In this document: positions 6,755-58,964 of the stretch, one piece after another
Layout of the letters: each line of letters starts with the position of its first letter
Position numbering within the stretch: the stretch's first letter is position 1
Origin: Amnibacterium sp. CER49
GTDB lineage: Bacteria; Actinomycetota; Actinomycetes; Actinomycetales; Microbacteriaceae
Direction: 5' to 3'
Assembly: GCF_029846255.1 (NCBI RefSeq)
Contig: NZ_JARVWQ010000001.1
Span: 186,001-250,000, forward strand
Length of the DNA stretch: 64,000 nucleotides
Notes under the pieces: model-generated
What the model saw: the letters and a program-made list of their open reading frames with translations, nothing else
Database searches by the model: none
What the model was told of the DNA's origin: nothing
Made by a program: the position numbers and the translations under genes

Positions 6755-6809
6755 CTGCTCCGGATCCGTGTCGCTCTCGGTGCGTCTCAGCGACAAGGAT
6801 CCGGAGCAG
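6755..6809. terminator. Convergent terminator hairpin with BamHI-like core
   Basis: CTGCTCCGGATCC (6755-6767) pairs perfectly with 6797-6809. An inner stem TGTCGCT/AGCGACA (6769-6775/6789-6795) continues it. It sits between the DUF4031 gene and rne, which converge, so it can terminate both. The GCTCCGGATCC core recurs at 58914-58964 and, in related form, in the repeats at 39590 and 52612. Confidence 0.75.
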
Positions 6810-39543: not shown

Positions 39544-39589
39544 GCCTCCATCCTGGCCTGCTCCGCTGCGCGCTTCGCTGGCCCTGCTC

Positions 39590-39694
39590 GCGGATCCGGA
39601 GTTCCCGGCCGACACGCCGAGGGCACCCCTCGGAGCGCGGCGTGTCGTCGCAGAACTCCGGATCCGCGGGAGAACTCCGGATCCGCGAAGGCGG
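39590..39694. repeat. MITE/REP-like palindromic element, copy 1
   Basis: The termini GCGGATCCGGAGTT (39590-39603) and AACTCCGGATCCGC (39673-39686) are perfect inverted repeats; the right terminus is duplicated at 39654-39667. Inside, CGACACGCCG (39610-39619) pairs with 39638-39647, and CCGAGGG with CCCTCGG at the centre. A second copy with the same order lies at 52612-52718. No coding potential is seen. Confidence 0.8.
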
Positions 39695-39701
39695 GCGCGC
39701 G

Positions 39702-40352
39702 TCAGTGGCGGTGGTCGGCGGCGTGGGCCCCGAGGTGGAGCACCGCCGCCTGCGTGCGGCTCTGCAGCCCGAGCTTCGCGAGCAGGCTGGACACGTAGTT
39801 CTTCACGGTCTTCTCGGTGAGGCCGAGCCGGACCCCGATCTGACGGTTCGTCAGCCCGTCGGCGATGAGCGCGAGCACGTCGCGCTCGCGCGGCCCGAGC
39901 GAGGCGAGCCGCGGGTCCTCGGACTGGTCGCGCAGGCGGCTGCGCACCGCGCGCACGAGCCCCGCGTCGAGCGCGGACCGGCCCGCTGCGACCGTCCGGA
40001 CGGCGTCGATGAGGCCGCTGCCGCGGATGTCCTTCAGCACGTAGCCGGCGGCGTTCGCGATGACCGCCGACACCATCGCCTCGTCGTCGTCGTACGCGGT
40101 GAGCATGATGCAGCGCACCTCGGGCAGAGCGCTCGAGAGGTCGCGGCAGAGGTCGATGCCGCTGCCGTCCGGCAGCCGCACGTCGAGCAGGGCCACGTCG
40201 GGGCGGACCGCGAGGATCCGGCCGCGCGCCTGCTCCACCGTCTCGGCCTCGCCCACGACGCGGATGCCCGGGTCCCCCTCGAGCAGCTCGGCGACGCCAC
40301 GCCGCACGAGCTCGTGGTCGTCGACGAGGAACACGGTCGTGGGGTCCGGCAT
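39702..40352 (-). CDS. NarL/DevR-like response regulator
   Basis: The 216-residue protein has a receiver domain with Asp11/Asp12, the phosphorylation site Asp57 in ALLDVRLPDG and Lys in GYVLKDI. Its C-terminal LuxR helix-turn-helix reads LTNRQIGVRLGLTEKTVKNY, followed by LLAKLGLQSRTQAAV. That helix closely resembles mycobacterial DevR/DosR, the dormancy regulator. ATG 40352. The cognate kinase gene is 86 bp upstream, and DosR-like boxes lie near the kinase and USP genes. Confidence 0.9.
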   Translation of the reverse strand: MPDPTTVFLVDDHELVRRGVAELLEGDPGIRVVGEAETVEQARGRILAVRPDVALLDVRLPDGSGIDLCRDLSSALPEVRCIMLTAYDDDEAMVSAVIANAAGYVLKDIRGSGLIDAVRTVAAGRSALDAGLVRAVRSRLRDQSEDPRLASLGPRERDVLALIADGLTNRQIGVRLGLTEKTVKNYVSSLLAKLGLQSRTQAAVLHLGAHAADHRH

Positions 40353-40438
40353 GCTGCGTCCGTTCTGGGAAGACGGGGCTGGTCGGGATCCTGACGGCCG
40401 CCCCTGCCCCGGTCCAGGGCCTTTCGGCACTGGCGCGC

Positions 40439-42172
40439 TCACGTCGCGGACTCCGGCAGCGGCACGGTCCAGGTGAGCGCGGTCCGTCCTCCGTCGGCGG
40501 CGAGCACCATCGAGCCGCCGCGCCGGCGGGCGCGCTCCTCGAGGTTCGCGAGGCCGCTGCGGCGTCCGTCGGAGGCGGGCGGCGGCCCGTCGTTCGTGAC
40601 GACGACGGTGAGCCCGTCGGCCCCGGCCGACACCGCGACGGAGACGGACGCGGCGTGCGCGTGCTTCACCGCGTTCGTGACCGCCTCGGTGACGACGGCG
40701 AGCAGCTCGTCGCCGAGCGCGGCGTCGACGACGCCGTCGACGGGCCCCGCGAACGACAGCGCGGGCTCGAGCGACAGCGAGGCGCCGAGCTCGCGGAGCA
40801 GGTCGAGCAGCCGCTGCCGCGCGGTCTCCCCGGGGCCGACGTGGTCGGTCGTCGAGAGGGTGAAGATCACCCGGCGGATCTGCGCGATCGCCGCGTCGAG
40901 GCTGCTCACCGCCGCATCGACCCGGTCGGCGCCTCGCCCCGGCGGCATGGTGCCGAGCACGCTCTGCAGCTGCATGCCCGTGGCGAAGAGCTGCTGGATC
41001 ACGCGATCGTGCAGGTCGCGGGCGATCCGGCTGCGCTCCTCGAACAGCAGCATGCGCTCCTGGTCGTTCCGGGCCGCGTGCAGCTCGAGCGCGACGCCCG
41101 CGCGGCCGGCGAAGTCGAGCGCCATCGCGGCGTCGGCCTCGCTGAAGTTGCGCCGGCCGCGGCGCCGGGCCACGACGAGGGTGCCGAGCACGCGTGTCCC
41201 GGTGCTGAGGGGCAGGATCAGGAGCGGCCCGAACTCCTTGAGGTAGGACACGCCGAGCGCGTCCGTCGCTGCTTCGTCGAGCCGGCGCGGCTCGCCGGTG
41301 CGCAGCACCGGCTCCGAGGCGCTTCCCCGCGTGCGGACGGTCCGGCCGAGCCGTCCCGTCGGATCGCTGCCGCGCACCTCGACGATGTTGATGCGCTCGG
41401 GGTCGTCGTCGAGCATCGTGACGAACACGCTGTCGGCGTCGGCGAGCTCGAGCACCCGGTCGGCCACGAGGGTGAGCGGGTTGCCGTCGCCCGGCGCGAG
41501 CAGGTGCGCCGTGACCTCGGCCGACGCCGCCGCCCACTGCTGACGGTGCCGCATGTCGGAGTAGAGCCGGGCGTTCGCGATCGCGAAGCCCGCGGTCGAG
41601 GCGAGCGAGCGGACGAGCTGCTCGTCCTCCTCGGAGAAGGCCCCGCGGGGCTGCCCGGCGAGGTAGAGGCTGCCGAAGAGCACGCCGCGCACGCGGACCG
41701 GGACGCCGAGGAAGTCGTGCACGGGCGGGTGCCCGGGGGGCAGCTCGCCGGCCTGCGGGTGGGTGCGGTAGTCGTCGAGCCGGACCGGGTCGCGGGAGTG
41801 CATCACCGCGCCGAGCAGGCCGGTCCCGACGGGCAGACCGCCGATGGCGGTGACCTCCTCCTCCGTCATCCCCGACTGGACGATCTGGTCGAGCGCACCG
41901 CGGTCGTCGACGAGGCCGAGGGCACCGAAGCGGGCTCCTGTGAGGTCGCGCGCGGCGTCGACGACGCGGTCCAGCACCGCCGCGAGGTCGAGCTCGCTGA
42001 CGATCGCCTGGTTCGCTCGGAGCAGGACCCGCAGCCGCCCCTGCGTGAGCAGCACCTCGTTCGCCGCCTCGACGAGGTCGCTGATCCTGCGATCCAGCTC
42101 GGCGCGCGGTGGATCCGGGAAGGAGATCGGCGGGTCGGGCGGGTCGATGACCACCGGCGACGCTTCGGACAT
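40439..42172 (-). CDS. DevS/DosT-like GAF-domain sensor histidine kinase
   Basis: The 577-residue kinase has two GAF domains (about 60-205 and 228-365), a HisKA_3 domain with phospho-acceptor His388 in IARDLHDRVIQ, and an HATPase domain (EAVTNAVKHAHA, SGLANLEERARRRGG). In the first GAF, His148 (GHPPVHDFLG) and Tyr170 (FGSLYLAG) align from memory with haem ligand His149 and distal Tyr171 of mycobacterial DevS. It should therefore sense oxygen, NO or redox state through haem. ATG 42172 is downstream of a GGGACC box. No transmembrane helix is present. Confidence 0.9.
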   Translation of the reverse strand: MSEASPVVIDPPDPPISFPDPPRAELDRRISDLVEAANEVLLTQGRLRVLLRANQAIVSELDLAAVLDRVVDAARDLTGARFGALGLVDDRGALDQIVQSGMTEEEVTAIGGLPVGTGLLGAVMHSRDPVRLDDYRTHPQAGELPPGHPPVHDFLGVPVRVRGVLFGSLYLAGQPRGAFSEEDEQLVRSLASTAGFAIANARLYSDMRHRQQWAAASAEVTAHLLAPGDGNPLTLVADRVLELADADSVFVTMLDDDPERINIVEVRGSDPTGRLGRTVRTRGSASEPVLRTGEPRRLDEAATDALGVSYLKEFGPLLILPLSTGTRVLGTLVVARRRGRRNFSEADAAMALDFAGRAGVALELHAARNDQERMLLFEERSRIARDLHDRVIQQLFATGMQLQSVLGTMPPGRGADRVDAAVSSLDAAIAQIRRVIFTLSTTDHVGPGETARQRLLDLLRELGASLSLEPALSFAGPVDGVVDAALGDELLAVVTEAVTNAVKHAHAASVSVAVSAGADGLTVVVTNDGPPPASDGRRSGLANLEERARRRGGSMVLAADGGRTALTWTVPLPESAT

Positions 42173-42198
42173 GCGGGCGTCCTAGCGACGAAGGGATG

Positions 42199-42212
42199 GG
42201 GACCTTCGTCAG
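42199..42212. promoter_or_regulatory. DosR-like box upstream of kinase gene
   Basis: GGGACCTTCGTCAG lies 27 bp from the kinase start. It shares GGGACCTTCG exactly with the site at 43162. Mycobacterial DosR recognises a GGGACT-type 20-bp palindrome, so this could be an autoregulatory site. Confidence 0.5.
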
Positions 42213-42268
42213 TGTAGGACGGGCCCCCGCCGGGGGCATGCGGGTTTTCCCGCATCTTCCCGGCGCCC

Positions 42269-43051
42269 TCAGGCGGTCGCGGCGAACGGCAGATCCGTCT
42301 CCTTCACGAAGATCATCGGCGCGCTGATGCGGGTCGCGATCTCGTGCGCGACCGGCTCGCGCCCCGCGCCGCCCTCGCCGCGAGCGAGCACGAGCAGCGC
42401 CGCGTCGCGGGCGGCGACCGCCAGCTCGAGCACCGCGTCGCCGGGCGCTGCCGATCCCGCTCGAGCGCTCCGGTGCAGGAAGCGGCGCACGCTGCTCCGC
42501 TGCTGCTGCAGCATCCGGATCGCCTCCGGCCGGGTGTCGTAGACCGCTCCCCCGTGCCGCACGGCGATCTCGACGAGCGGCGCCCGCAGATCCTCCGCCT
42601 CGCTGGCGGCGACGAGCGCGGCGGCCTCCGAGGCTGCGGTGCCGTCGGACCCGACCACGACGTCGCCGTGCCGGTCCCGCGCGTCGGACGGTACGAGCGC
42701 GACCGGGACTGCCGCGTGCGCCACGAGCCGCGCTGCGAGCCCGTACCGCAGCGGGAAGCGCATCGCGTCGCAGCCCGCGACACCGAGCACGAGCATCGTG
42801 TCCGGCCGATGCCGGGCGAGCTCCGACTCGCGGTCGCCGCGGACGACCTCGGTGCGCACCTCGAGGCCCGGACGCCTGCCGCGCAGGCCGCGGGCGGCCT
42901 CCTCCGCGTCCTGCGCCGTCGGTGCGGGTGCGACGCCGTCGTCGACGTGGAGCAGCACGACGGAGCGGGTCGCCGGCCGGTCCGCGCTCCACTCCGCGGC
43001 GTCCCGGGCTCGCTCCGAGCCGTCCCACGCGACGAGAACCCGCTCGAACAC
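42269..43051 (-). CDS. Tandem-domain universal stress protein
   Basis: The 260-residue protein has two UspA folds: RVLVAWDGSERARDAAEWS at the start and DVVVGSDGTAASEAAALVAA from about 130. The second has a shortened nucleotide-binding signature near ARDAALLVLARGEGG. GTG 43051 has GGAG five bases upstream. DosR regulons of mycobacteria are rich in USPs, and GGGACTTTGGACCC lies about 60 bp upstream here, so it is a likely target of the adjacent two-component system. Confidence 0.85.
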   Translation of the reverse strand: MFERVLVAWDGSERARDAAEWSADRPATRSVVLLHVDDGVAPAPTAQDAEEAARGLRGRRPGLEVRTEVVRGDRESELARHRPDTMLVLGVAGCDAMRFPLRYGLAARLVAHAAVPVALVPSDARDRHGDVVVGSDGTAASEAAALVAASEAEDLRAPLVEIAVRHGGAVYDTRPEAIRMLQQQRSSVRRFLHRSARAGSAAPGDAVLELAVAARDAALLVLARGEGGAGREPVAHEIATRISAPMIFVKETDLPFAATA

Positions 43052-43109
43052 GCCTGCTCCATCCGCTCGGCCCCGCTCGAGCGTCGCCCTCGGTTCGGAG
43101 AGCGCCCAA

Positions 43110-43175
43110 GGGTCCAAAGTCCCGGCCGGCCGGCCAGGCAGCCCGGCGAGCGACCCGCGACGGGACCTTCGACCC
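43110..43175. promoter_or_regulatory. Two DosR-like boxes between USP and BON genes
   Basis: On the minus strand GGGACTTTGGACCC (43123-43110) is close to the DosR consensus GGGACTWWAGTCCC. On the plus strand GGGACCTTCGACCC lies at 43162-43175. They occupy the divergent region between the USP and BON-domain genes and could control both. The sites are seen; binding is inferred. Confidence 0.6.
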
Positions 43176-43228
43176 TTCCTCGGCCGCAGCGCCCGGGTGA
43201 CGGTGGTCGACCCGCACCAGGAGGCCCG

Positions 43229-43474
43229 ATGTCCGTCCTCGCGTTCCCGCACGTCACCCTCGACCCGCCCGACCTCGCCGACGTGGACCTTCGCCGACGC
43301 GTCGAGGCGGTGCTCACGCACCCCGTGCTGCGCCGCGTCGGCCCGGTCTCAGTCGCCGCTCGCGACGGCGTGGTGCGGCTCGGCGGCCTGCCGGACGACG
43401 AGGTCCTCCTGCGCGCGGTCGTCGCGGCGGCGCTCGGGGTGCCCGGCGTGCGGACGGTGGTGCCGTCCCGGTAG
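43229..43474 (+). CDS. BON-domain small protein
   Basis: The 81-residue protein reads DVDLRRRVEAVLTHPVLRR, then VSVAARDGVVRLGGLPDDEV and GVPGVRTVVP, the alpha-beta BON pattern with the conserved glycine. No signal peptide is visible, so it is likely cytoplasmic. ATG 43229 has AGGAGG upstream. BON and USP proteins are often encoded together near DosR-type regulators. The role is unknown. Confidence 0.8.
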   Translation: MSVLAFPHVTLDPPDLADVDLRRRVEAVLTHPVLRRVGPVSVAARDGVVRLGGLPDDEVLLRAVVAAALGVPGVRTVVPSR

Positions 43475-43555
43475 CAGACGTGGCCGGATCCCGGAAGGGG
43501 TGCCGCCGTGGGCGGCCCCCGCGGAGACTCGTCGGGCGACTCCGGTCGTGCTTCC

Positions 43556-43596
43556 GGTGGGTCCGTCCGCGAAGCGGCATCCTGGACGGACCCACC
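43556..43596. terminator. Convergent terminator, BON/aldo-keto reductase
   Basis: GGTGGGTCCGTCC (43556-43568) pairs perfectly with 43584-43596 across a 15-nt loop between two converging genes. Confidence 0.85.
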
Positions 43597-43612
43597 CTCC
43601 CGCTTCCCGTGG

Positions 43613-44542
43613 TCAGGGCAGCAGATGCCCCGCCGCGCTGAACAGCCGGTACCACTCCTCGCGCGTGAGCGGCAGGTCCGAGCCGGCCGCGGACTCCCTG
43701 ACGCGCTGCGCCTTCGTCGTGCCGAGGACGACCTGCATGTTCGCGGGGTGCCGCGTGATCCACGCCACCGCGATCGCGGTCGGCGTGACGTCGTACCGCT
43801 TCGCGATGTCGTCGATGGCGTCGTTCAGCTCGGCGTAGTGCTCGCGGTCGCCGAGGAAGACGCCGTCGAAGAAGCCCTTCTGGAACGGCGACCACGCCTG
43901 CAGCGTGATGTCGTTGAGGCGGCAGTACTCGAGGATCCCGTTGTCGCGGTCGATGGACTGGTCGAGCCCGTTCATGTTCGCCGCGATGCCCTGCGTGAGC
44001 AGGTTCGCGTGGGTGATCGACAGCTGCACCTGGTTGAACAGCAGCGGCTGGCGGACGCTGCGACGCAGCAGCTCGATCTGACCGGGCGTCTGGTTCGAGA
44101 CGCCGAAGTGCCGCACCTTGCCGGCGGTCTGCAGGGCGTCGAACGCGTCGGCGATCTCCTCCGGCTCCATCAGCGTGTCGGGGCGGTGCAGCAGCAGCAC
44201 GTCGAGGTAGTCGGTGCGGAGCGCCTTCAGCGAGCCGTCGACGCTCTCGAGGATGTGCTCCTTCGAGAAGTCCCAGAAGCCGTCGCGGAGGCCGACCTTG
44301 CTCTGGATGATCATCTGCTCGCGGTCCGACGCCTTCAGCTGCAGCGCATCGCCGAAGCGCTGCTCGCAGTCGTGGTCGTGCGCGCCGTAGATGTCGGCGT
44401 GGTCGAAGAAGGTGATGCCCTCGTCGCGGGCGGTGCCGACGAGGGTGCGCACCTCCTCCGCGGAGATCTCGTCGATCCGCATGAGGCCGAGGACCACGTT
44501 CGAGACGGGCAGGTCGAATCCGGGGATGGGGAGGTTCTTCAC
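43613..44542 (-). CDS. Aldo/keto reductase (YdhF-like)
   Basis: The 309-residue TIM-barrel NADPH oxidoreductase has the catalytic tetrad in FFDHADIYG (Asp, Tyr), IIQSKVGL (Lys) and LLLHRPD (His). NADPH-binding VVLGTTKAQRV follows near the C-terminus. The substrate is unknown. ATG 44542 begins MKNLPIPGFDLPVSNVVLGL. Confidence 0.92.
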   Translation of the reverse strand: MKNLPIPGFDLPVSNVVLGLMRIDEISAEEVRTLVGTARDEGITFFDHADIYGAHDHDCEQRFGDALQLKASDREQMIIQSKVGLRDGFWDFSKEHILESVDGSLKALRTDYLDVLLLHRPDTLMEPEEIADAFDALQTAGKVRHFGVSNQTPGQIELLRRSVRQPLLFNQVQLSITHANLLTQGIAANMNGLDQSIDRDNGILEYCRLNDITLQAWSPFQKGFFDGVFLGDREHYAELNDAIDDIAKRYDVTPTAIAVAWITRHPANMQVVLGTTKAQRVRESAAGSDLPLTREEWYRLFSAAGHLLP

Positions 44543-44631
44543 GGTCTTGTCCTACCGTGTGCCGTCTCGGCGCGCGCCGAGACGATCGGTCGCCTCGCGC
44601 GCCGACGACGGTGAGGGATGGGGGCACTCGG

Positions 44632-45150
44632 GTGACGGCGTCGACGCCCCGGCTCGCGACCGGGCTGCCCGTGGAGCGTGCGCGCAGCCGGATCGGCGCC
44701 TACGTGTACGGCGACGTCCTCGTGCTCGGGGCGCTCCTCACCGTCGAGATCGACGCGGAGCGACCCGTGATCGGCGCGCTCGCGGTGGCGCTCACGACGG
44801 TCATCACCTACGTCGCGCACGTCGTGTCCGACGCGATCGGCGACCGCCTCGGCCGGGACTCGAAGGAGCACGCCGCCTCCCTGCCGAGGGAGCTGCGCGA
44901 CGCGCTGCCGATCGCGAGCGCAGGGGTGCTGCCGGCGCTGGTCGTGCTCCTCGGCGCGCTCGGGGTGATGCCGCTGCTCGCGGCGGTGGCGATCGGCGTC
45001 GCCGTGGTCGCGCTGCGGCTCGCGGCCGTCGGCGTCGTGATCGCGCACTGGACCGGCGAGCCGGCCCCGCTCACGGCGATCACCGCGGGCGTCACGGTGG
45101 CGCTCATCGGCGCGGCCGTCGGCCTGCTCGAGGTGCTGGTGGCGCACTAG
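44632..45150 (+). CDS. Hypothetical membrane protein (172 aa)
   Basis: The protein has four hydrophobic helices (YVYGDVLVLGALLTV, ALAVALTTVITYVAHVVSD, GVLPALVVLLGALGVMPLLA and the C-terminal helix). A DRLGRDSKEHAASLPRELRD loop lies after the second. No family is recognised. GTG 44632 is chosen; an in-frame GTG at 44611 is also possible. It is divergent from the aldo/keto reductase and is followed by a small membrane protein after 3 bp. Confidence 0.7.
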   Translation: MTASTPRLATGLPVERARSRIGAYVYGDVLVLGALLTVEIDAERPVIGALAVALTTVITYVAHVVSDAIGDRLGRDSKEHAASLPRELRDALPIASAGVLPALVVLLGALGVMPLLAAVAIGVAVVALRLAAVGVVIAHWTGEPAPLTAITAGVTVALIGAAVGLLEVLVAH

Positions 45151-45153
45151 CCG

Positions 45154-45360
45154 ATGCTCGACGGCTCCGCGGCGCTCTCGCCGCTGCTCGGGTTCCTGCT
45201 CACCGCCGGCTGGCTCAGCGTGATCCTCGTGGTGATCCTGCGGGCGCAGCGGGCTCGACGCGGTCGGGTGCCGGTCTGGATGATCGTGCTGTTCGCGCTG
45301 ATCTGGGCGTTCGTCGCGGTGGTGCTCGTCGTGCTCCTGGTGCGTGGGGCGACCGGCTGA
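45154..45360 (+). CDS. Small two-helix membrane protein (68 aa)
   Basis: Two hydrophobic helices (LLGFLLTAGWLSVILVVIL and VWMIVLFALIWAFVAVVLV) flank a basic AQRARRGR loop. ATG 45154 is 3 bp after the previous stop, so the two membrane genes form an operon. No family is recognised. Confidence 0.65.
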   Translation: MLDGSAALSPLLGFLLTAGWLSVILVVILRAQRARRGRVPVWMIVLFALIWAFVAVVLVVLLVRGATG

Positions 45361-45407
45361 GCGCGCGACCGCGCCGCTCCCCCCGCTGCGCCCATCTCCG
45401 GGCCGGC

Positions 45408-45458
45408 TCCGACAAGGCGGGCGCGAAACGACGTCCGGAATGTCGGAACGCGCCCGCC
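45408..45458. repeat. Two interleaved inverted repeats
   Basis: TCCGACA (45408-45414) pairs with 45441-45447, and GGCGGGCGCG (45416-45425) pairs with 45449-45458. The pairs cross, so they form either a pseudoknot or mutually exclusive hairpins. The site follows the small membrane-protein operon and may be a terminator. Confidence 0.55.
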
Positions 45459-45584
45459 CATCGCTCCGATCGTGCGCCCCACGACGGGCGGGAGGGGCGC
45501 CCGTCCTGGCCGAGGTCGCCCGTGCTCGTGCCGGAACCGCCGCTCCCGACGGGTTCCGGCCGAGCGCCGGGCTAGCGTGCGGTC

Positions 45585-45911
45585 GTGGCCCGCCTGATCC
45601 TGACGGTCGCGAGCCTCGCCGCTCCCCTCCTCCTCGTCGGCTGCGCACCGACCTTCAGCGCCTACGCGCCCTTCAGCCCCGCGGTCGTGCTCGCGGCGGT
45701 CGCGGGACCGCTCGCCGCAGGTGCGGTCGTCGTGCTGATCGGCACCGCGATCGGTCTCGGCGCGCTGCTCCGGCTGGCGCGGCTCACCTCTGCGGCGAGG
45801 CGGACCGCCGTCGTGGGATCCGTGGCGCTGGGCGTCGTCCTGCTGCTCGCGACAGTGCTGCTCCTCGTGTCCATCGCAGCGATCGCCGCGCCCCGCTCGA
45901 CGCTCGCCTGA
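45585..45911 (+). CDS. Hypothetical membrane protein with lipobox-like N-terminus
   Basis: The 108-residue protein starts MARLILTVASLAAPLLLVGC, matching a short lipoprotein signal with Cys20. Two further hydrophobic helices follow. GTG 45585 lies about six bases after TAGCGT (45573-45578), so the mRNA may be leaderless. No family is recognised. The signal could also be a plain first helix. Confidence 0.6.
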   Translation: MARLILTVASLAAPLLLVGCAPTFSAYAPFSPAVVLAAVAGPLAAGAVVVLIGTAIGLGALLRLARLTSAARRTAVVGSVALGVVLLLATVLLLVSIAAIAAPRSTLA

Positions 45912-45921
45912 TCGGCCGCAT

Positions 45922-45947
45922 CGGGGGCGGGTGCCGCCGCGCCCCCG
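45922..45947 (+). terminator. Short hairpin terminator
   Basis: CGGGGGCG (45922-45929) pairs with 45940-45947 across 10 nt, 11 bp past the preceding stop. Confidence 0.55.
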
Positions 45948-45971
45948 GCCCCTGGGCCCGGGCCAGAAGCC

Positions 45972-46001
45972 TTGCTCGTCGAACCGTTCCGGTCCTACTG
46001 T
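45972..46001 (+). promoter_or_regulatory. Promoter of FAD oxidoreductase gene
   Basis: TTGCTC (45972-45977) and TACTGT (45996-46001) are 18 bp apart. The same TTGCTC -35 is seen at the hydrolase promoter. It leaves a leader of about 60 nt. Confidence 0.6.
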
Positions 46002-46067
46002 CGGCCGCGGCGGCGGGGCATCGAGGGGCAGCGACGGGGCTGCCTCCTCCGCGGCCTGGAGGTCTCC

Positions 46068-47459
46068 GTGACTCAGATCCTGAACGATCCGCTCGACGCG
46101 CTCCGGTCCGGCTTCGGCGGCACCGTGATCACCCCGCAGGACGTCGAGTACGACGAGGCGCGCAAGCGGTGGAACGGCTCGATCGATCGCCGACCCGCCG
46201 TGATCACCCGCTGCGCGAGCGCGGAGGATGTCGCCGCGGCCGTCACCTACGCGACGGCGCAGGGGCTCGAGATCGCGGTCCGTGGTGGCGGCCACAGCGT
46301 GTCGGGCTCCTCGACGGTCGACGACGGCCTCGTGATCGATCTCTCGGGCATGCGGACGGTGGCGGTGGACGCGGAGGCGCGGACCGCGCGCGTCGGCGGC
46401 GGCGCCCTGCTCGGCGACCTCGATGCGGCCGCGCAGGCGCACGGCCTCGCCGTGCCGGCGGGCATCGTGAGCCACACCGGCGTCGGCGGCCTGACGCTCG
46501 GCGGCGGCATGGGTCACTTCACCCGGAAGGCGGGCCTCACGATCGACAACCTGCGCTCGGCACAGGTCGTGACGGCCGACGGTCGCATCCGCCATGCCTC
46601 GGAGACCGAGGAGCCCGACCTCTTCTGGGCGATCCGGGGCGGCGGCGGCAACTTCGGCGTCGTCACCGAGTTCGAGTTCCAGCTGCACGAGCTGGGACCG
46701 ATGGTGCAGATGGGAATGCTGTTCTGGTCGCTCGACCAGGGCGACGACGTGCTGCGGCTGGCGCGCGAGCTCATCCCGACGCTCTCGCGGGACCTCAACG
46801 TGCTCATCGTCGCGCTGAACGCGCCGCTCGCCCCGTTCGTGCCGCCGGAGTTCCAGGGCGAGCCGGGCTGGGCGCTCTGGATCGACGGCTTCGGCGACCC
46901 CGACGAGCACGCGTCCCTCATCGAGCGCATCCGCCGCTCGCTGCCGCCGAAGTGGGAGATCGCGACCCCGATGCCGTACACGGCGCTGCAGTCGATGACC
47001 GACGAGGCGAACGCGTGGGGCGGGTACGCCTACGAGCGCGCCGTCTACCTCGACGAGATCACCGACGAGGCGATCGACGTGCTCGTGCGCGAGGTGCCCA
47101 AGAAGTCGTCGCCGCTCTCGATCGTGGCCTTCTACCGCCTCGATGCCGCCTACTCCGACGTGCCGGACGACACCACCGCGTTCAGCGGCAGCCGGAAGCC
47201 GGGCTACGGCGTCTTCACGATCGCGGTCTGCCCCGCACCCGACCTACTCGAGCTCGACCGGCAGTGGGTGCGCGGCCTCACCGACCAGCTGAAGCCGCTC
47301 GCGCGCCCCGGCGCCTACATCAACGGACTCGCCGAGAGCGACTCGGCCCTGCTGCAGGAGTCGTACGGGCCGAAGTGGGACAGGCTGCGGCAGATCAAGG
47401 CCGCGTACGACCCGCAGAACGTCTTCCACCGCAACTTCAACATCCCGCCCGCGGAGTGA
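46068..47459 (+). CDS. FAD-binding PCMH/BBE-type oxidoreductase
   Basis: The 463-residue protein has a VAO-type FAD domain: RPAVITRCASAEDVAAAV, then AVRGGGHSVSGSS, where the His is the usual covalent FAD attachment site, and GVGGLTLGGGMGHFTRKAGL. The cysteine of bicovalent enzymes is replaced by Ser in GIVSHTG, so linkage is probably monocovalent. The C-terminal BBE segment YDPQNVFHRNFNIPP is present. Family members oxidise sugars, alcohols or secondary metabolites; the substrate is unknown. GTG 46068 has GGAGG five bases upstream. Confidence 0.92.
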   Translation: MTQILNDPLDALRSGFGGTVITPQDVEYDEARKRWNGSIDRRPAVITRCASAEDVAAAVTYATAQGLEIAVRGGGHSVSGSSTVDDGLVIDLSGMRTVAVDAEARTARVGGGALLGDLDAAAQAHGLAVPAGIVSHTGVGGLTLGGGMGHFTRKAGLTIDNLRSAQVVTADGRIRHASETEEPDLFWAIRGGGGNFGVVTEFEFQLHELGPMVQMGMLFWSLDQGDDVLRLARELIPTLSRDLNVLIVALNAPLAPFVPPEFQGEPGWALWIDGFGDPDEHASLIERIRRSLPPKWEIATPMPYTALQSMTDEANAWGGYAYERAVYLDEITDEAIDVLVREVPKKSSPLSIVAFYRLDAAYSDVPDDTTAFSGSRKPGYGVFTIAVCPAPDLLELDRQWVRGLTDQLKPLARPGAYINGLAESDSALLQESYGPKWDRLRQIKAAYDPQNVFHRNFNIPPAE

Positions 47460-47463
47460 CGAG

Positions 47464-47493
47464 GGGCGGCGCCTCGGCGAGGAGGCGCCGCCC
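47464..47493 (+). terminator. Terminator of FAD oxidoreductase gene
   Basis: GGGCGGCGCCTC (47464-47475) pairs perfectly with 47482-47493 across a 6-nt loop, 4 bp past the stop. Confidence 0.88.
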
Positions 47494-47635
47494 GCCCGGT
47501 GGCTCGGCGACTGCGCCGCCCTCTGCCCGCACCGCGTCCCGTGCGGCGAGGGCGGCGTACGACGAGGCGATGCATCCGGCCCGGTGAGCGGCTGGTCGGG
47601 CTGCGGTCGCAGGACGACCTGACGGGCGCACCGCA

Positions 47636-47758
47636 TCAGCCGGCTGGGGAGACGGCGCCGCACGCGACGCAGAGCACCGCTTCGGGCGCGTCGTGCTCCG
47701 GCAGCCGCACCTCCACGAGGCGGCTGCCGCCGCACCGGTCGCACGTCGCGCTCGCCAC
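47636..47758 (-). CDS. Predicted 40-residue zinc-ribbon protein
   Basis: The frame encodes two CxxC pairs 20 residues apart, TCDRCGGSRLVEVRLPEHD and AVLCVACGAVSP, the layout of a minimal zinc ribbon. GTG 47758 is the only start in the frame after an upstream stop. No ribosome-binding site is obvious, but the intact four-cysteine pattern in an otherwise empty 370-bp interval supports a real gene. Its promoter would face the divergent acetyltransferase promoter. Confidence 0.5.
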   Translation of the reverse strand: MASATCDRCGGSRLVEVRLPEHDAPEAVLCVACGAVSPAG

Positions 47759-47831
47759 GAGGCAGGTGTACGGGCGCCGTCCGACAACGCCGGGCCGGGA
47801 CGCTCGGATCCCGCGGCCCTACGGTGGCGTC

Positions 47832-48269
47832 ATGGCGGACGCGGTGCGGGTGGAGCAGGTCGAGGCGCTCGACGAGGAGGTCGCCGCGGCCGTGCAGCGA
47901 CTGCTGCCGCAGCTGTCGTCCTCGGCGGTGTTCGACGCCGGCCTCATCGAGCAGGTCGTGACGAACCCGGCGACGTCCCTCTTCGTCGCGCGGGACGGGG
48001 ACGCGGTGATCGGCATGGCGACCCTCGTCATCGTGCCGGCGCCCACCGGGCTGCGCGGGCACATCGAGGACGTCGTGGTCGACGAGGCCGCGCGCGGGCG
48101 GGGCGCGGGCCGGGCGCTGATGGACGCGCTGATCCGGCAGGGCCGGGAGGCGGGGCTGCGGTCCCTCGAGCTCACCTCGCGCCCCTCGCGCACGGCCGCG
48201 ATCGCGCTCTACGAGTCGGTCGGCTTCGCGAAGCGCGAGACGAACGTGCTGCGCTACGCCTTCGACTGA
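47832..48269 (+). CDS. GNAT family N-acetyltransferase
   Basis: The 145-residue protein has IEDVVVDEAARGRGAGRALMDALI, the acetyl-CoA-binding loop, and a C-terminal RTAAIALYESVGFAKRET. The substrate is unknown. ATG 47832 is six bases after TACGGT (47820-47825), so the transcript is probably leaderless. Confidence 0.87.
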   Translation: MADAVRVEQVEALDEEVAAAVQRLLPQLSSSAVFDAGLIEQVVTNPATSLFVARDGDAVIGMATLVIVPAPTGLRGHIEDVVVDEAARGRGAGRALMDALIRQGREAGLRSLELTSRPSRTAAIALYESVGFAKRETNVLRYAFD

Positions 48270-48318
48270 CGATCCGGCATCACTGGGTTGGAGGCGTTCG
48301 TCGCCCGCGGCTGAGCCG

Positions 48319-48798
48319 CTAGAAGGGCTGCACCTCGACAGACTCAGTCGGCTGCGGGTCGCCGCGCTCGTCTGACCACGACACCTTCACCGACGCGTAG
48401 CCCTGGAACCGGTCCACCGCGCACTTGAAGACGGCCTGCTGCGGGAAGAGCTCCCACTGGGCGTCGTCGAGCACCTTGGTGCTGTAGTTGTCGTCGACGC
48501 GCACGTTGCGGGCCACGCCGGAGGCCGTGTTGACGAGCCGCACCTGGTCAGGCCCAGGCCCCTGCGCCGCGATCCACCGCACCGGCTTGAGCGGCGCCGG
48601 TCGATGCGGGCGCACGCGACTCTTGTGCACGAGGCGGAACGACGCCGCCCAAGCTGCGCCGCGGCCGAGCGTGCGGAACAGCACCGCCCACACCCGCCGC
48701 GTCGGCTTCACAGCGCCGGTGATGGCGGCGACGACCAGCGCGCTGACGGTCGGGATGAAGAACGCGGGCGCGGCGACCCAGGCCAACACACCGCTCAC
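48319..48798 (-). CDS. Hypothetical membrane-anchored protein (159 aa)
   Basis: An N-terminal hydrophobic region (VLAWVAAPAFFIPTVSALVVAAITGAV) is followed by a basic stretch, then a beta-rich domain (QVRLVNTASGVARNVRVDDNY, VKVSWSDERGD). It resembles a small extracytoplasmic or cytosolic beta fold tethered to the membrane. No family is recognised. GTG 48798. Its codon choice looks slightly less GC-biased than its neighbours. It lies next to tRNA-Gly, so horizontal gain is possible. Confidence 0.55.
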   Translation of the reverse strand: MSGVLAWVAAPAFFIPTVSALVVAAITGAVKPTRRVWAVLFRTLGRGAAWAASFRLVHKSRVRPHRPAPLKPVRWIAAQGPGPDQVRLVNTASGVARNVRVDDNYSTKVLDDAQWELFPQQAVFKCAVDRFQGYASVKVSWSDERGDPQPTESVEVQPF

Positions 48799-48863
48799 GG
48801 TGCGCCAGCGTAGGGGTGCCGTCGGACACTGGCGGGGTTTCCGCGGGGATCGCGGGCCAGAGA

Positions 48864-48910
48864 CGGTAGAAGCCCCAGCAGGAACAGGTGTCCTGCCAGG
48901 GCTTCTACCG
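48864..48910 (-). terminator. Terminator of tRNA-Gly
   Basis: CGGTAGAAGCCC (48864-48875) pairs perfectly with 48899-48910, with an inner GCAGGA/TCCTGC stem. It begins 2 bp after the tRNA 3' end. Confidence 0.9.
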
Positions 48911-48911
48911 G

Positions 48912-48982
48912 AGGGGATGACGGGAATCGAACCCGCACCACCAGTTTGGAAGACTGGAGCTCTGCCATTGAGCTACATCCCC
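48912..48982 (-). tRNA. tRNA-Gly (anticodon TCC)
   Basis: The 71-nt cloverleaf has acceptor GGGGATG/CATCCCC, D arm GCTCAATGGCAGAGC, anticodon arm CCAGT-CTTCCAA-ACTGG with UCC, and a T arm with TTCGATT. The discriminator is U, as in bacterial tRNA-Gly. CCA is not encoded. Confidence 0.97.
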
Positions 48983-49114
48983 GGCGCCCGCTCGCGCGGG
49001 CCGTGCCAGGGTACCCGGCTCCGCGGCCCCCTTCCGTCCGACGCGGCGAGGACGACCCGTCGCTCCTTGGCGCGCTGCCAGTCGCCGCTACGGAATCGGT
49101 GGGACCGTTGAAGC

Positions 49115-49363
49115 ATGAGCATCGGAACCGGCGTCGCCCTGTTCGTCATCGGCGCGATCCTCGCGTTCGCCGTCCACGTCACCATCGGGGTGATCGACCT
49201 CGCCACGACGGGCTACATCCTGATGATCGCAGGCATCGTCGTCTTCGTCGTCGGGCTCGTGCTGCTGTTCGTCCGGCGCAGCAGCACCTCGACGACCCGG
49301 GTCGACCCGGTGTCGGGTGAGCGGGTCACGCGCCGCGACATCGACGGCGGCCCGCGGTACTAG
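49115..49363 (+). CDS. DUF6458 family small membrane protein
   Basis: The 82-residue protein has two hydrophobic helices (GVALFVIGAILAFAVHVTIG and GYILMIAGIVVFVVGLVLLF) and a polar tail with DPVSGERVTRRDI. Short actinobacterial proteins with MSIGTGVALFVIGAILAFA belong to DUF6458; the function is unknown. ATG 49115 follows GACCGT by six bases, so it may be leaderless. The 164 bp to the converging amidohydrolase hold only a weak ATTCGGA/TCCGAAT repeat (49447-49485). Confidence 0.8.
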   Translation: MSIGTGVALFVIGAILAFAVHVTIGVIDLATTGYILMIAGIVVFVVGLVLLFVRRSSTSTTRVDPVSGERVTRRDIDGGPRY

Positions 49364-49527
49364 CGGAGCTCCAGCCATCGCCCCGGTCTTGGGACGCGCC
49401 CTCGCGCGCTCCTCGATCGCGGGGGCGGTCGAAGCGGTGGCCGCGGATTCGGAACGACGCAGCGGATCGCGCCCCAGGTCCGAATGCATGGCGCGTGGGC
49501 GGCTGAGCCGAATCGGTGGCGGCCGGG

Positions 49528-50958
49528 TCAGAAGCGGCGGTGGGTGAAGCGGCCGGCGACCAGCGTCGCGGCAACGCCTGAGGCGGACATCCGCTCGAGC
49601 GGCTCGTCGAGGAGCACGAGGTCGGCCGCGTCGCCGACGCGGGGCTCGGCGCGGCCGCGGGTCGAGGCCGCGAGCGCCTCCCCCAGCGTGATCCGCTGCT
49701 CGCCGTGCCACGGCGGCTGCTCGTCGCCCGTCCGCTCGACGGCGGCGCGGATCGCGAGCCACGGGTCGAGCGGCGCCACCGGGGTGTCCGAGCCGAGCAC
49801 CAACGTCGCACCCGCGTCGAGGAGGCGCCGGAACGGGTAGGCGCGGCCGGTGCGGCCGGGCCAGTGCTGCTCCGCGACGTCGCGGTCGTCGAGCAGGTGT
49901 CCGGGCTGCACGCTCGCGGTCACGCCGAGCCGCCCGAACCGCGGCAGGTCCGCGTCCGCGACGAGCTGCGCGTGCTCGATGCGGCCGCTCACACCGGTCG
50001 CCTCGAACGCGTCGAGCGCGGACTTCACGGCGGCGTCGCCGATCGCGTGGACGGCCGGGGTGAGCGCCACCTCCCGCGCCCGGGTGAGCAGCGCCCGCAG
50101 CTCGTCGGGGGGCACGGTGAGCAGCCCGCGCGTGCCGTCGGGGTACGGCTCGGCCAGGTAGGCGGTGCGGGTGTTCAGCGCCCCGTCGATGAGCGTCTTC
50201 AGCGGCCCCACGGAGAGCAGGCCGAGGTCGTCGTCGAGGGCGGCGCCCGTGCAGAGGCCCTCGTCGGCCGCGCGGTCGAGGTCGAAGGGGTAGACGGCCG
50301 CCTCGACACGGAGCGCGGCGAAGCCGGCAGCGGCACGCCGGAGCCAGGGGTCCTTGTTCCACGCCATCTCGAAGTCGACGATGCCGACGACCCCGCGCTG
50401 CGCCGCCTGCTCGGCGAGCGCGGCCACAGCGGGATCCGCGGACGCCTCGGACAGCTCCCGCACGTCGCGCGCGACGGCGAACGCGGCGCCCTCGCGGAGC
50501 AGGCCCGAGTCGTCGAGCTCGACGCCGAACCGCCGGCCCGCCGCGCTGCTCAGCCAGACCGCGTGCACGTCGTGACTCGTCAGCACGACGGGCCGCTCCC
50601 CCGCCGCGGCGTCGAGCGCGGCGCGGGTCGGGAGGTCGGGCCAGACGCCGTCGCGGAAGCCGATACCGAGCAGCGGCCAGTCTCCGGGCTGTTCCGCGGC
50701 ACCCCGCCGGACGAGTTCCGTGGCCTCGGCGGCCGAGGTCGCGCCGCCGAGCTGGATCCACGACGCGGCGAGCGCCGCCTGCGTCATGTGGACGTGCTCG
50801 TCCCACAGCCCGCGGAGCAGCCGGCGCCCGTCGGCCTCGACGACCTCGAGGGGCCCGGCGTCGAGCTGCGGGGCGAGCGCCGTGATCCGGCCGTCCTCGA
50901 TACGGACGTCGACGAGCCCCGCGCCGAGGCGGGCGCGGTGCAGCAGCAGGTCCGGCAC
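49528..50958 (-). CDS. YtcJ-like metal-dependent amidohydrolase
   Basis: The 476-residue protein has the amidohydrolase pattern: WDEHVHM with two metal-binding His near residue 56, a conserved Lys/Asp stretch GPLKTLIDGALNTRT, PAVHAIGDAAV, RIEHAQLV with catalytic His, and LGSDTPVAPLDP with the metal Asp. YtcJ-like enzymes hydrolyse N-acyl or cyclic amide compounds; the substrate is unknown. GTG 50958 is 4 bp from the glycosylase stop, so they are cotranscribed. Confidence 0.88.
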   Translation of the reverse strand: MPDLLLHRARLGAGLVDVRIEDGRITALAPQLDAGPLEVVEADGRRLLRGLWDEHVHMTQAALAASWIQLGGATSAAEATELVRRGAAEQPGDWPLLGIGFRDGVWPDLPTRAALDAAAGERPVVLTSHDVHAVWLSSAAGRRFGVELDDSGLLREGAAFAVARDVRELSEASADPAVAALAEQAAQRGVVGIVDFEMAWNKDPWLRRAAAGFAALRVEAAVYPFDLDRAADEGLCTGAALDDDLGLLSVGPLKTLIDGALNTRTAYLAEPYPDGTRGLLTVPPDELRALLTRAREVALTPAVHAIGDAAVKSALDAFEATGVSGRIEHAQLVADADLPRFGRLGVTASVQPGHLLDDRDVAEQHWPGRTGRAYPFRRLLDAGATLVLGSDTPVAPLDPWLAIRAAVERTGDEQPPWHGEQRITLGEALAASTRGRAEPRVGDAADLVLLDEPLERMSASGVAATLVAGRFTHRRF

Positions 50959-50962
50959 CGGG

Positions 50963-52048
50963 TCAGTCCCGCTTCGGGCGGGGCAGCGTCTGCCAGCCCG
51001 GCGCCCAGTAGAGGTTTCGGCCGCCCATCTCCTCCATGACGACCTCGCCGCGCCCGCGGGGGCTCTTCTGCCCGGTGCGCTTGTAGACGAAGTGCCGCTC
51101 GTCCCGGCTCGCGAGCGCGTTGCGGTACTGCTCCTCGGTCTCGAGGTCGTCGCGGGTCATCATCTGCCCGGTCCGCACGCCGATCGCGAGCAGATGCGCC
51201 CAGTCGCGCCAGAGCTTCCGGAGCGCGGGCACGGAGATCTCCTTGCCCGGCGTGTGCGGGTTGAGGCGCGCGCGGAACAGCAGCTCTGCCCGGTAGACGT
51301 TGCCGATGCCGGCGACGACGCTCTGGTCCATGAGCAGCAGGCCGATCGGGCTGCCCGACTTCCGGACGGCCGCGACGAAGCGGTCCTCTGCGGCCTTGCC
51401 CGAGTCGTGCATCGGGTCGGGGCCGAGCTTCGCGATCAGCCGGCGCACCTGGTCGGGGTCGAACACCTCGCAGGCCGTCGGGCCGCGCAGGTCGGCGACC
51501 GCGGTGTCGATGAGCAGGCGCAGGCGGACCTGGCCGATCGGCTCGGGCGGGAACTCGGTGAGCTCGACGTCCTCGCCGCGCTCGCTCTCCGCCATCCGCA
51601 GGCGGGTACGGCGGGGAGCGCCGATCGACCCGAGGCTCGACTCGGGCAGCGCGTCGGCGACCACTCCCCCGTCCGCCGCGGCCTCGAGACCGTCCGGGGT
51701 CTCGGCGGACGGGTCGATCGTGTCGCCCGCGATCTGATCCAGGAACGTGCCCCGCTGGTTCGTCTGCCCCATCCGGCCGTTCGCCGAGGCGAGCGTCGCG
51801 TCGGCGGTGATCTCGCCCGCGAAGTCCCACGCGCCGTAGAGGCCGAGGTGGACGTGGAGGGTGCGCTCGCCCTCGAACTCGAGCAGCAGGTGCTTGCCGA
51901 CGGCGCTCGAGGCGACCATCACCCGGCCGTCGAGGAGCGCCGCGCCCGCGGCGAAGCGGCCCTGGGGGCTCGAGGCGGCGGCACGGTGACCGACGAAGTT
52001 GCGTCGGAACTGCAGCGCGATGCGGTGGAGCGAGTGGCCTTCGGGCAT
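50963..52048 (-). CDS. Fpg/Nei DNA glycosylase with zincless finger
   Basis: Fpg/Nei enzymes excise oxidised bases and cut the abasic site. The 361-residue protein starts MPEGHSLHRIALQFRRN, giving the catalytic Pro2 and Glu3 of the Nei branch. The H2TH region (MDQSVVAGIGNVYRAELLFRA) is intact. The C-terminal finger has lost all four cysteines: SPRG replaces CPRC-like residues and APGWQ replaces CPxCQ, while the RNLYW loop with its Arg is kept. About 80 extra residues lie between the N-terminal and H2TH domains. ATG 52048 is one base from the rpiB stop. Confidence 0.88.
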   Translation of the reverse strand: MPEGHSLHRIALQFRRNFVGHRAAASSPQGRFAAGAALLDGRVMVASSAVGKHLLLEFEGERTLHVHLGLYGAWDFAGEITADATLASANGRMGQTNQRGTFLDQIAGDTIDPSAETPDGLEAAADGGVVADALPESSLGSIGAPRRTRLRMAESERGEDVELTEFPPEPIGQVRLRLLIDTAVADLRGPTACEVFDPDQVRRLIAKLGPDPMHDSGKAAEDRFVAAVRKSGSPIGLLLMDQSVVAGIGNVYRAELLFRARLNPHTPGKEISVPALRKLWRDWAHLLAIGVRTGQMMTRDDLETEEQYRNALASRDERHFVYKRTGQKSPRGRGEVVMEEMGGRNLYWAPGWQTLPRPKRD

Positions 52049-52049
52049 G

Positions 52050-52559
52050 TCAGTCGCCGATGCGCTGCACAGCGGCGTCGATCGGGTGGCCCGCGATCGC
52101 GCCGGTGCGCTCGTACTCGGCGAGCTGCGCGATGCGCCGCGCGTGCCGCTCCTCCTTCGAGAACGGCTCGGCGAGGAACAGGTCGATGAGGTGCAGCGCG
52201 TCCTCGAGGGTGTGCTGGCGGGCACCGATCGCGCAGACGTTCGCGTCGTTGTGCTGCCGGGCGAGCAGCGCGGTCGACTCGTTCCAGATGAGCGCGGCGC
52301 GGATGCCCTCCACCTTGTTCGCGGCGATCTGCTCGCCGTTGCCGGAGCCGCCGAACACCACGCCGAGGGTGTCGACGCCCGCCGCCTGGTCGTTCACGAC
52401 GCCGATCGCGGCGTTGATGCAGAACGACGGGTAGTCGTCGAGCGGGTCGTACTCGGTGGGGCCGTGGTCGACGACCTCGTGGCCGCTCTGCTCGAGGTGG
52501 TCCTTCAGCTGCTGGGCGAACTCGAGCCCGGCGTGGTCGGTCCCGATGTGGACGCGCAT
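52050..52559 (-). CDS. rpiB: Ribose-5-phosphate isomerase B
   Basis: RpiB interconverts ribose-5-phosphate and ribulose-5-phosphate in the pentose phosphate pathway. The 169-residue protein has the N-terminal MRVHIGTDHAGLEF and the phosphate-binding GVVFGGSGNGEQIAANK. NDANVCAIGARQH is also present. The catalytic Cys position before GSGNGE is Gly, as in many actinobacterial RpiB that use Glu instead. ATG 52559. Confidence 0.95.
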   Translation of the reverse strand: MRVHIGTDHAGLEFAQQLKDHLEQSGHEVVDHGPTEYDPLDDYPSFCINAAIGVVNDQAAGVDTLGVVFGGSGNGEQIAANKVEGIRAALIWNESTALLARQHNDANVCAIGARQHTLEDALHLIDLFLAEPFSKEERHARRIAQLAEYERTGAIAGHPIDAAVQRIGD

Positions 52560-52611
52560 GCGCCGAGTCTAGAAGCGGCGCGCCGAGCCCCTCGGCCTCC
52601 ACCTCCTGACC

Positions 52612-52718
52612 GCGGATCCGGAATTCCTCCTCGACACGCCGCGGCCCATCCCCTCCTCCCCCGCGTGTCGCTGCAGAAGTCCGGAACGGCGCGAGAAATC
52701 CGGATCCGCGAAGGTGGG
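52612..52718. repeat. MITE/REP-like palindromic element, copy 2
   Basis: This copy has the same order as 39590-39694: GCGGATCCGGAATTC at the left, CGACACGCCG and CGCGTGTCG as inner arms, a CTGCAGAAGTCCGGA segment, GAAATCCGGATCCGC at the right end, then GAAGGTGGG. The terminal inverted repeats match at 14 of 15 positions. It lies between rpiB and pepN, upstream of both. Confidence 0.8.
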
Positions 52719-58913: not shown

Positions 58914-58964
58914 GCTCCGGATCCTGGTCGGAATCGGACCGGCAGAGCGGCGAGGATCCGGAGC
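58914..58964. terminator. Convergent hairpin with GCTCCGGATCC core
   Basis: GCTCCGGATCC (58914-58924) pairs exactly with 58954-58964 across 29 nt. It is the same core as at 6755 and lies between two converging thioesterase genes. Confidence 0.7.

Follow-up and report, generated by a model that had tools for sequence, protein, structure and literature searches.

A dispersed REP-like repeat family in Amnibacterium and the Vsr-like DUF559 gene flanked by its copies

What kind of element are the two non-coding palindromes of about 100 bp that lie at 39590-39694 and 52612-52718 in a 64,000-nucleotide stretch of the Amnibacterium sp. CER49 genome (contig NZ_JARVWQ010000001.1; the whole stretch is hereafter the window), and what spread them? 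A preliminary description of the pair, here copy 1 and copy 2, saw a miniature inverted-repeat transposable element (MITE) or a composite of repetitive extragenic palindromic (REP) sequences mobilised in trans. Both copies stand where it placed them, with the parts it named. Its interpretation held in part: the palindromes belong to a REP-like family that is scattered over the genome and probably has a partner acting in trans, and this is not a standard pairing of REP sequences with a REP-associated tyrosine transposase (RAYT), because the RAYT profile PF01797 finds nothing in this genome. Our favoured explanation, to which we give a probability of roughly 0.64, is a REP-like family with a trans-acting Vsr-like DUF559 nuclease encoded between two element copies.

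A conserved core between genome-specific arms

The two palindromes are members of a larger family. BLAST with copy 1, followed by a check of each place, gave at least 23 distinct copies in the 3.36 Mb genome (two contigs), where the preliminary description had considered that there might be only two. From left to right, a copy consists of an arm, CGCGGATCCGGA, present once or twice (19 bp apart), a freer spacer of about 9-10 nt, CGACACGCCG, a free loop of 17-19 nt, CGGCGTGTCG, another spacer and the inverted arm, again once or twice. In the 23-row alignment, invariant columns fall within the arms and the core, and 15 of the 23 copies have the exact 9+9 core. Conservation stops at about GCGGATCCGCGA; the trailing GAAGG(C/T)GGG shared by the window copies is thus no feature of the family.

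Loops are 18 or 19 nt long in all 75 exact-core elements from CER49, A. kyonggiense (G001) and A. setariae (G003), in a search that allowed 15-21 nt; one inexact CER49 copy has a 17-nt loop. Elements of the two congeners were fetched at 33 of 44 and 27 of 40 exact-core places, respectively, so that their core identity is conditioned by the search and their arms and loops are not. The idea of the loop as a paired stem was rejected, since Amnibacterium loops pair little (largest z 2.6); loop pairing near the core occurs in some other genomes (largest z 4.1). A replication-strand orientation bias was also dropped, orientations being mixed and the elements near-symmetric. By eye, none of the 23 aligned CER49 copies carries a GTAG tag at a fixed place.

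The core recurs in other Micrococcales, and the arms form genome-specific "dialects". Scanning CGACACGCCG-N16..20-CGGCGTGTCG in one genome per species (84,980 species) yielded at least 117 stretches, many in Microbacterium and other Microbacteriaceae and others in Isoptericola, Haematomicrobium and Demequina; the matches listed include some likely chance ones in unrelated bacteria. Among 398 genomes of the family, 65 hold at least one core and nine hold at least nine (six of the seven Amnibacterium, two of g92 and one of g3), and the reversed pattern used as a control is present in one. A closer set of 60 relatives has 6-44 exact cores in each of the seven Amnibacterium genomes, 1-3 in three of 30 other family genomes and five in one of 23 other genomes of the order; the reversed pattern has no match in any of the 60. 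Outer arms vary from genome to genome and remain complementary left to right, with 86 of 129 elements exceeding the 99th percentile of shuffled controls.

A DUF559 gene between two copies

Comparison of element loci between genomes revealed a fast-evolving gene lying between two elements in CER49 and A. setariae, intact in the latter. The preliminary description had looked to a transposase or RAYT gene with matching ends as the partner; the flanked gene instead belongs to the DUF559/Vsr-like group, which it did not foresee. Such a gene lies between two copies in six of seven Amnibacterium genomes. A survey of the genus, in which 30 loci were fetched from 35 matches, found DUF559 genes with cores on both sides, each in its own genome's dialect, in A. 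kyonggiense (C3), G002 (C142), G004 and G005 (C4). A further flanked gene occurs in A. kyonggiense (C1:472k) and another in G002 (C348), and one locus (L275) adjoins a core on a single side.

The association also emerges when the search starts from the core. The 117 loci fetched by core alone contain seven DUF559-like open reading frames (ORFs), all adjoining a core and five of them lying between two cores that are about 1.0-1.3 kb apart. When the genes no more than 250 bp from a core in these loci were clustered without bias, DUF559 emerged as the top family, with a count of only four loci because a simple gene caller missed others.

Flanking exceeds background in two sets of loci. One (L291-L320) comprises the top matches to a profile built from flanked proteins, six of them from Amnibacterium; 29 of its 30 loci were tested, the incomplete L301 being omitted. 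The other holds 30 loci of ten genomes chosen for carrying the core, where L351 is identical to L315 of the first set. As background we took 70 genes from eight A. setariae stretches; three of these genes adjoin at least one core. Flanking by two cores occurs in 10 of 29 and 4 of 30 DUF559 loci, against 0 of 70 background genes; without the Amnibacterium loci and the duplicate, the counts are 8 of 52 against 0 of 70 (p 0.0008). A core-independent score for inverted flanks exceeded the background 99th percentile at 13 of 29 and 15 of 30 loci, against 1 of 70. The flanked-protein profile itself matches 225 of 299 family genomes at E <= 1e-20, a figure that counts matches and not flanked genes.

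The dialect beside the gene is the dialect dispersed in the genome. This holds in M. luticocti, M. jejuense, M. algeriense and Isoptericola halotolerans, that is, in all four of the ten core-bearing genomes from which a core-flanked gene was fetched, with the dispersed dialect found independently. Flanks also predicted dispersed arms. In G034 (genus g29), a DUF559 gene lies between hairpins in which the core went undetected, and its flanking arm, GGAAATGCAGGA, has 36 + 41 = 77 exact copies there, four of them the flanking ones. Most of these are paired in inverted orientation at a distance of about 80 bp, and some lie in near-identical clusters; of nine other genomes one has a single copy and eight have none, and the control gave 0. 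The flanking pair CGGATCAGGAG...CTCCTGATCCG of genus g89 has 16 matches at 12 places in G159, four in its congener G096 and none in eight other genomes (control 0). Prediction from DUF559 flanks thus worked in the two further genera tried. Across 19 cases, arm similarity is weakly correlated with protein identity (Mantel r 0.26, p 0.002).

Two side observations concern these loci. Many of the G034 GGAAATGCAGGA elements (L331-L346) are clustered with another repeat (GGTTGAGGAGCGC...CGTCTCGAAACCAC), apparently as recently duplicated composites. At L347 in M. luticocti, two elements stand on each side of the DUF559 gene and three of the four loops are nearly equal, a sign of recent local duplication; equal loops in two gene-flanking elements were otherwise not seen by eye.

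The putative partner protein combines an AbiEi-like N-terminal domain with a predicted Vsr/homing-type PD-(D/E)XK endonuclease domain. PF04480 scores above its cut-off in three of four proteins, the exception being the 181-aa CER49 piece, and the AbiEi-like N-terminal match is sub-threshold. The sequence profile A2 matches NGO0050 (3hrl; E 4.6e-8) and I-Bth0305I (3r3p; E 1.2e-4), and the predicted domain conserves acidic residues and a near-invariant His. Vsr-like homing endonucleases of the I-Bth0305I type carry the label EDxHD. We built an AlphaFold2 model from the M. lacticum protein with five others (mean predicted local distance difference test, pLDDT, 68; predicted template-modelling score, pTM, 0.62). 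A Foldseek search placed I-Bth0305I, Vsr (1cw0) and NGO0050 in the top five, as matches to the C-terminal domain, and AbiEi at rank 7; the 3r3p match has a template-modelling (TM) score of 0.83 by target length and E 0.02. NCBIfam names none of five proteins, and PADLOC returned AbiEi and homing endonuclease matches (best E 1.8e-7).

Site occupation and competing explanations

Orthologous sites reveal which parts are constrained. In 12 comparisons at 10 sites, the two core halves are 99 and 100% alike, the inner arms 92 and 96%, and the spacers 69 and 61%; loops are 64% alike, against 59% for random loop pairs. Arms and core are therefore kept, and the loop is conserved mainly in length.

Occupation of sites is lineage-specific. 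A. kyonggiense carries two dialects, old and new. Of its 13 old-dialect sites, 9 are shared with the 27 fetched A. setariae elements, and of its 20 new-dialect sites none is (p 2e-5), a zero that is valid for this set only. Direct inspection adds the copy-2 site (old) and L210 (new), giving 10 of 13 against at least 1 of 20 (p 3e-5). Seven of the 20 new-dialect sites had their A. setariae counterparts inspected: those of L204, L208, L212 and L213 have neither core nor arm, that of L205 has a lone arm-like decamer, and at L207 only one flank aligns and no element was seen. The seventh, L210, is a gap between two stops that holds a new-dialect element in A. kyonggiense (L210:1470-1570) and an old-dialect element in A. 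setariae (L287:14113-14212). The copy-2 site is occupied in CER49, A. kyonggiense, A. setariae and G004, lacks the element in G002 and G006, and may hold a remnant in G005. The preliminary description had reserved the label of structural element for a lone pair of copies fixed at orthologous places; the copy number and this variable occupation give a different picture.

Under the explanation we favour, the DUF559 protein would bind and cut the element, and movement would follow. Its N-terminal domain would read the genome-specific arms, and its nuclease domain would act on the conserved core or close to it, with the DNA in cruciform, hairpin or nicked form. Repair of the cut would occasionally copy the element into a new intergenic place, best tolerated behind convergent genes, after which arms and core would be under selection and the loop would drift. 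Arm wear is suggestive of decay after loss of the partner: CER49 arms are more worn than those of A. setariae (p 1.4e-4), but CER49 has two arm variants. The old dialect of A. kyonggiense gives p 0.06 in the same comparison. One element of that species lies where an old DUF559 gene persists as a C-terminal remnant.

The gaps in which the elements lie can be read in two ways. Elements sit between convergent genes in 36 of 76 cases and between divergent genes in 4 of 76; for gaps of the same loci the counts are 13 of 73 and 17 of 73. These figures use crude gene calls, which misplace copy 1 as divergent, and omit the 7 of 83 elements placed inside an ORF. Such a preference is compatible with harm avoidance and with a terminator role alike. 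The elements might accordingly be sites that serve the host (nucleoid sites, for example, or insulators or bidirectional terminators where genes converge), with the DUF559/AbiEi-like protein as a regulator and not a mobiliser, and with dialect changes as cis/trans co-evolution in place. We regard this as unlikely, for all that the convergent enrichment and divergent scarcity speak for it, as do the elements that almost fill a gap between two stops, the constraint on arms and core at shared sites, the presence of three dialects among the four species occupied at the copy-2 site, and the differing dialects of the two species occupied at L210. Terminators, however, need no sequence-specific arms or core. 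Copy 2 moreover lies between divergent genes, several new-dialect sites of A. kyonggiense have no element in A. setariae, and the gap counts inherit the crude gene calling.

Transposases of known kinds fit less well. The short length, inverted terminal arms, intergenic spread and lineage-specific sites would suit a family of MITEs mobilised by an ordinary transposase, DDE or other, with the DUF559 gene as passenger or frequent insertion target. We hold this to be highly improbable: a core conserved across genera with genome-variable ends is the opposite of what recognition of the ends by a single transposase would produce, target-site duplications were not observed, and DUF559 flanking recurs in Microbacteriaceae and Isoptericola, where it predicts dispersed arms. 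REPINs, as the available part of PMC3116915 describes them, have the same general layout, a pair of conserved blocks in inverted orientation set a constant distance apart around a freer spacer. A REP/REPIN family of known type, with a RAYT or another Y1 enzyme as mobiliser, is nonetheless scarcely credible here; the flanked gene is DUF559, and PF01797, the one transposase profile searched for, which matched in 5 of 14 genomes as a positive control, has no match in this one, which rules out a RAYT partner in it.

Several observations weigh against a DUF559 nuclease as mobiliser. The main weakness is that Amnibacterium offers neither an exact junction nor a recent copying event. No target-site duplication or exact insertion boundary appeared at the compared sites, whose flanks are only about 75-89% alike, and loops appear unrelated among copies, the newer dialect included, so recent copy-and-paste is not visible in the genus. 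L210, occupied with different dialects, indicates that an element already in place can change its dialect too, and the old-dialect arms of A. kyonggiense are not more worn than its new-dialect arms, even with one old DUF559 locus a remnant. The flanked gene of CER49 itself (C1:944079-944990, outside the window) has one in-frame TAG, so the family in this genome may be a relic or be served by another paralogue. Flanking is also incomplete: the element is absent beside most of the 35 DUF559 matches of the genus, and no core-flanked gene was found in G006 (84% complete). Among the 30 loci fetched from core-bearing genomes, none in Haematomicrobium, Demequina, Planctomonas deserti, Promicromonospora or G044 has cores on both sides, and a Leifsonia locus has one on one side only. 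The protein model is middling at its mean pLDDT, and every Foldseek match has E >= 0.01.

The window copies, other repeats and known systems

Both window copies display the family layout. In copy 1, the left arm CGCGGATCCGGA (39589..39600, minus strand, there reading TCCGGATCCGCG) precedes the core hairpin CGACACGCCG-N18-CGGCGTGTCG (39610..39647), the inner right arm TCCGGATCCGCG (39657..39668, plus) and an outer right arm that repeats it directly at a 19-bp period (39676..39687, plus). Copy 2 has its left arm at 52611..52622 (minus), the core hairpin CGACACGCCG-N19-CCGCGTGTCG at 52632..52670, an inner right arm, TCCGGAACGGCG, at 52680..52691 (plus) that resembles the CGCCGTTCCGGAG dialect of the congener G004, and the outer right arm TCCGGATCCGCG at 52699..52710 (plus). 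Against dinucleotide shuffles, single-strand folding of copy 1 is strong (z -4.9 as DNA and -5.0 as RNA, equalled by 0 of 200 shuffles) and that of copy 2 moderate (z -2.3 and -2.0, equalled by 3 and 7 of 200). Rfam at gathering scores reports three tRNAs in the window and nothing else.

The copies had been placed upstream of genes on either side, which is right for copy 2 alone. It lies between an rpiB-like isomerase gene (PF02502; 52050..52559, minus) and a divergent M1-family aminopeptidase gene (PF01433; 52816..55359, plus). Copy 1 is upstream of a luciferase-like monooxygenase gene (PF00296; 38671..39615, minus) and downstream of a response regulator (Response_reg and GerE; 39702..40289, minus, the stretch scanned, which does not define the gene start), whose stop starts 15 bp past the outer arm. 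The longest ORF of the PF00296 gene starts within copy 1, and the true start is therefore probably further in.

Other palindromes occur in this genome. A second DUF559 gene (L265, C1:863777-864637) has a GTGTAGGT palindrome with doubled arms on both sides, and a further DUF559 locus (L271, C2 near 827.3 kb) adjoins another GTGTAGGT palindrome, its arms 19 bp apart. A third DUF559 gene (L258, C1:828896-829732) lies between CGATTCGG-type repeats in direct order. In the window, positions 6759-6805 and 58916-58962 hold a different palindrome, TCCGGATCC-N29-GGATCCGGA with GCTCCGGATCC ends, possibly a second repeat family; a close version lies near C1:488 kb (L053:2238-2286).

The system works like a REPtron without being one by membership. 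The available portions of PMC3116915, PMC3733652 and PMC8266576 describe REP/REPIN-RAYT systems (REPtrons, TnpA-REP) as short intergenic palindromes that occur as inverted pairs with a fixed distance between them and are linked to Y1/HUH transposases, with spacer length kept more than sequence, copies flanking the partner nuclease gene, and repeats that co-evolve with the partner. The family described here is alike in layout and flanking; it differs in its predicted PD-(D/E)XK Vsr-like DUF559 partner in place of an HUH Y1 enzyme, in showing no GTAG tag, in its conserved CGACACG core and arms doubled at 19 bp, and in its occurrence in Micrococcales. TIRYTs/TIRtrons likewise have the partner gene between repeats that in some species are dispersed too, but TIRYTs are Y1/HUH enzymes, as far as the accessible text of PMC3733652 goes.

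On the protein side, the C-terminal fold and profile resemble Vsr-like homing endonucleases (I-Bth0305I) and the Vsr repair nuclease (3r3p, 3hrl, 1cw0). Unlike these, the gene here stands alone between two elements, has an AbiEi-like N-terminal part and goes with many dispersed short elements. MITEs are similarly short and non-coding with inverted ends; here the ends are genome-variable, the centre is conserved and no target-site duplication was seen. Caulobacter VsrA, with a DUF559 domain, is tied to cytosine methylation in the part of PMC12907096 available. Titles and the beginnings of abstracts, in a search that left subscription journals mostly uncovered, contained no report tying DUF559 to dispersed repeats.

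If a DUF559 nuclease does propagate these elements, repeats paired with a homing-type PD-(D/E)XK nuclease would represent an independent way of doing what Y1/HUH enzymes do elsewhere. The chances are evenly balanced that DUF559 proteins with an AbiEi-like N-terminus form a large, so far unrecognised class of nucleases that propagate repeats, resembling RAYTs by convergence but with a different fold; several independent nuclease-dialect pairs may then coexist within one genome. The abundant DUF559 family would then gain a role, REP-like repeats would have arisen at least twice, and the origin of such repeats and the co-evolution of nuclease and dialect would become testable in soil and plant bacteria.

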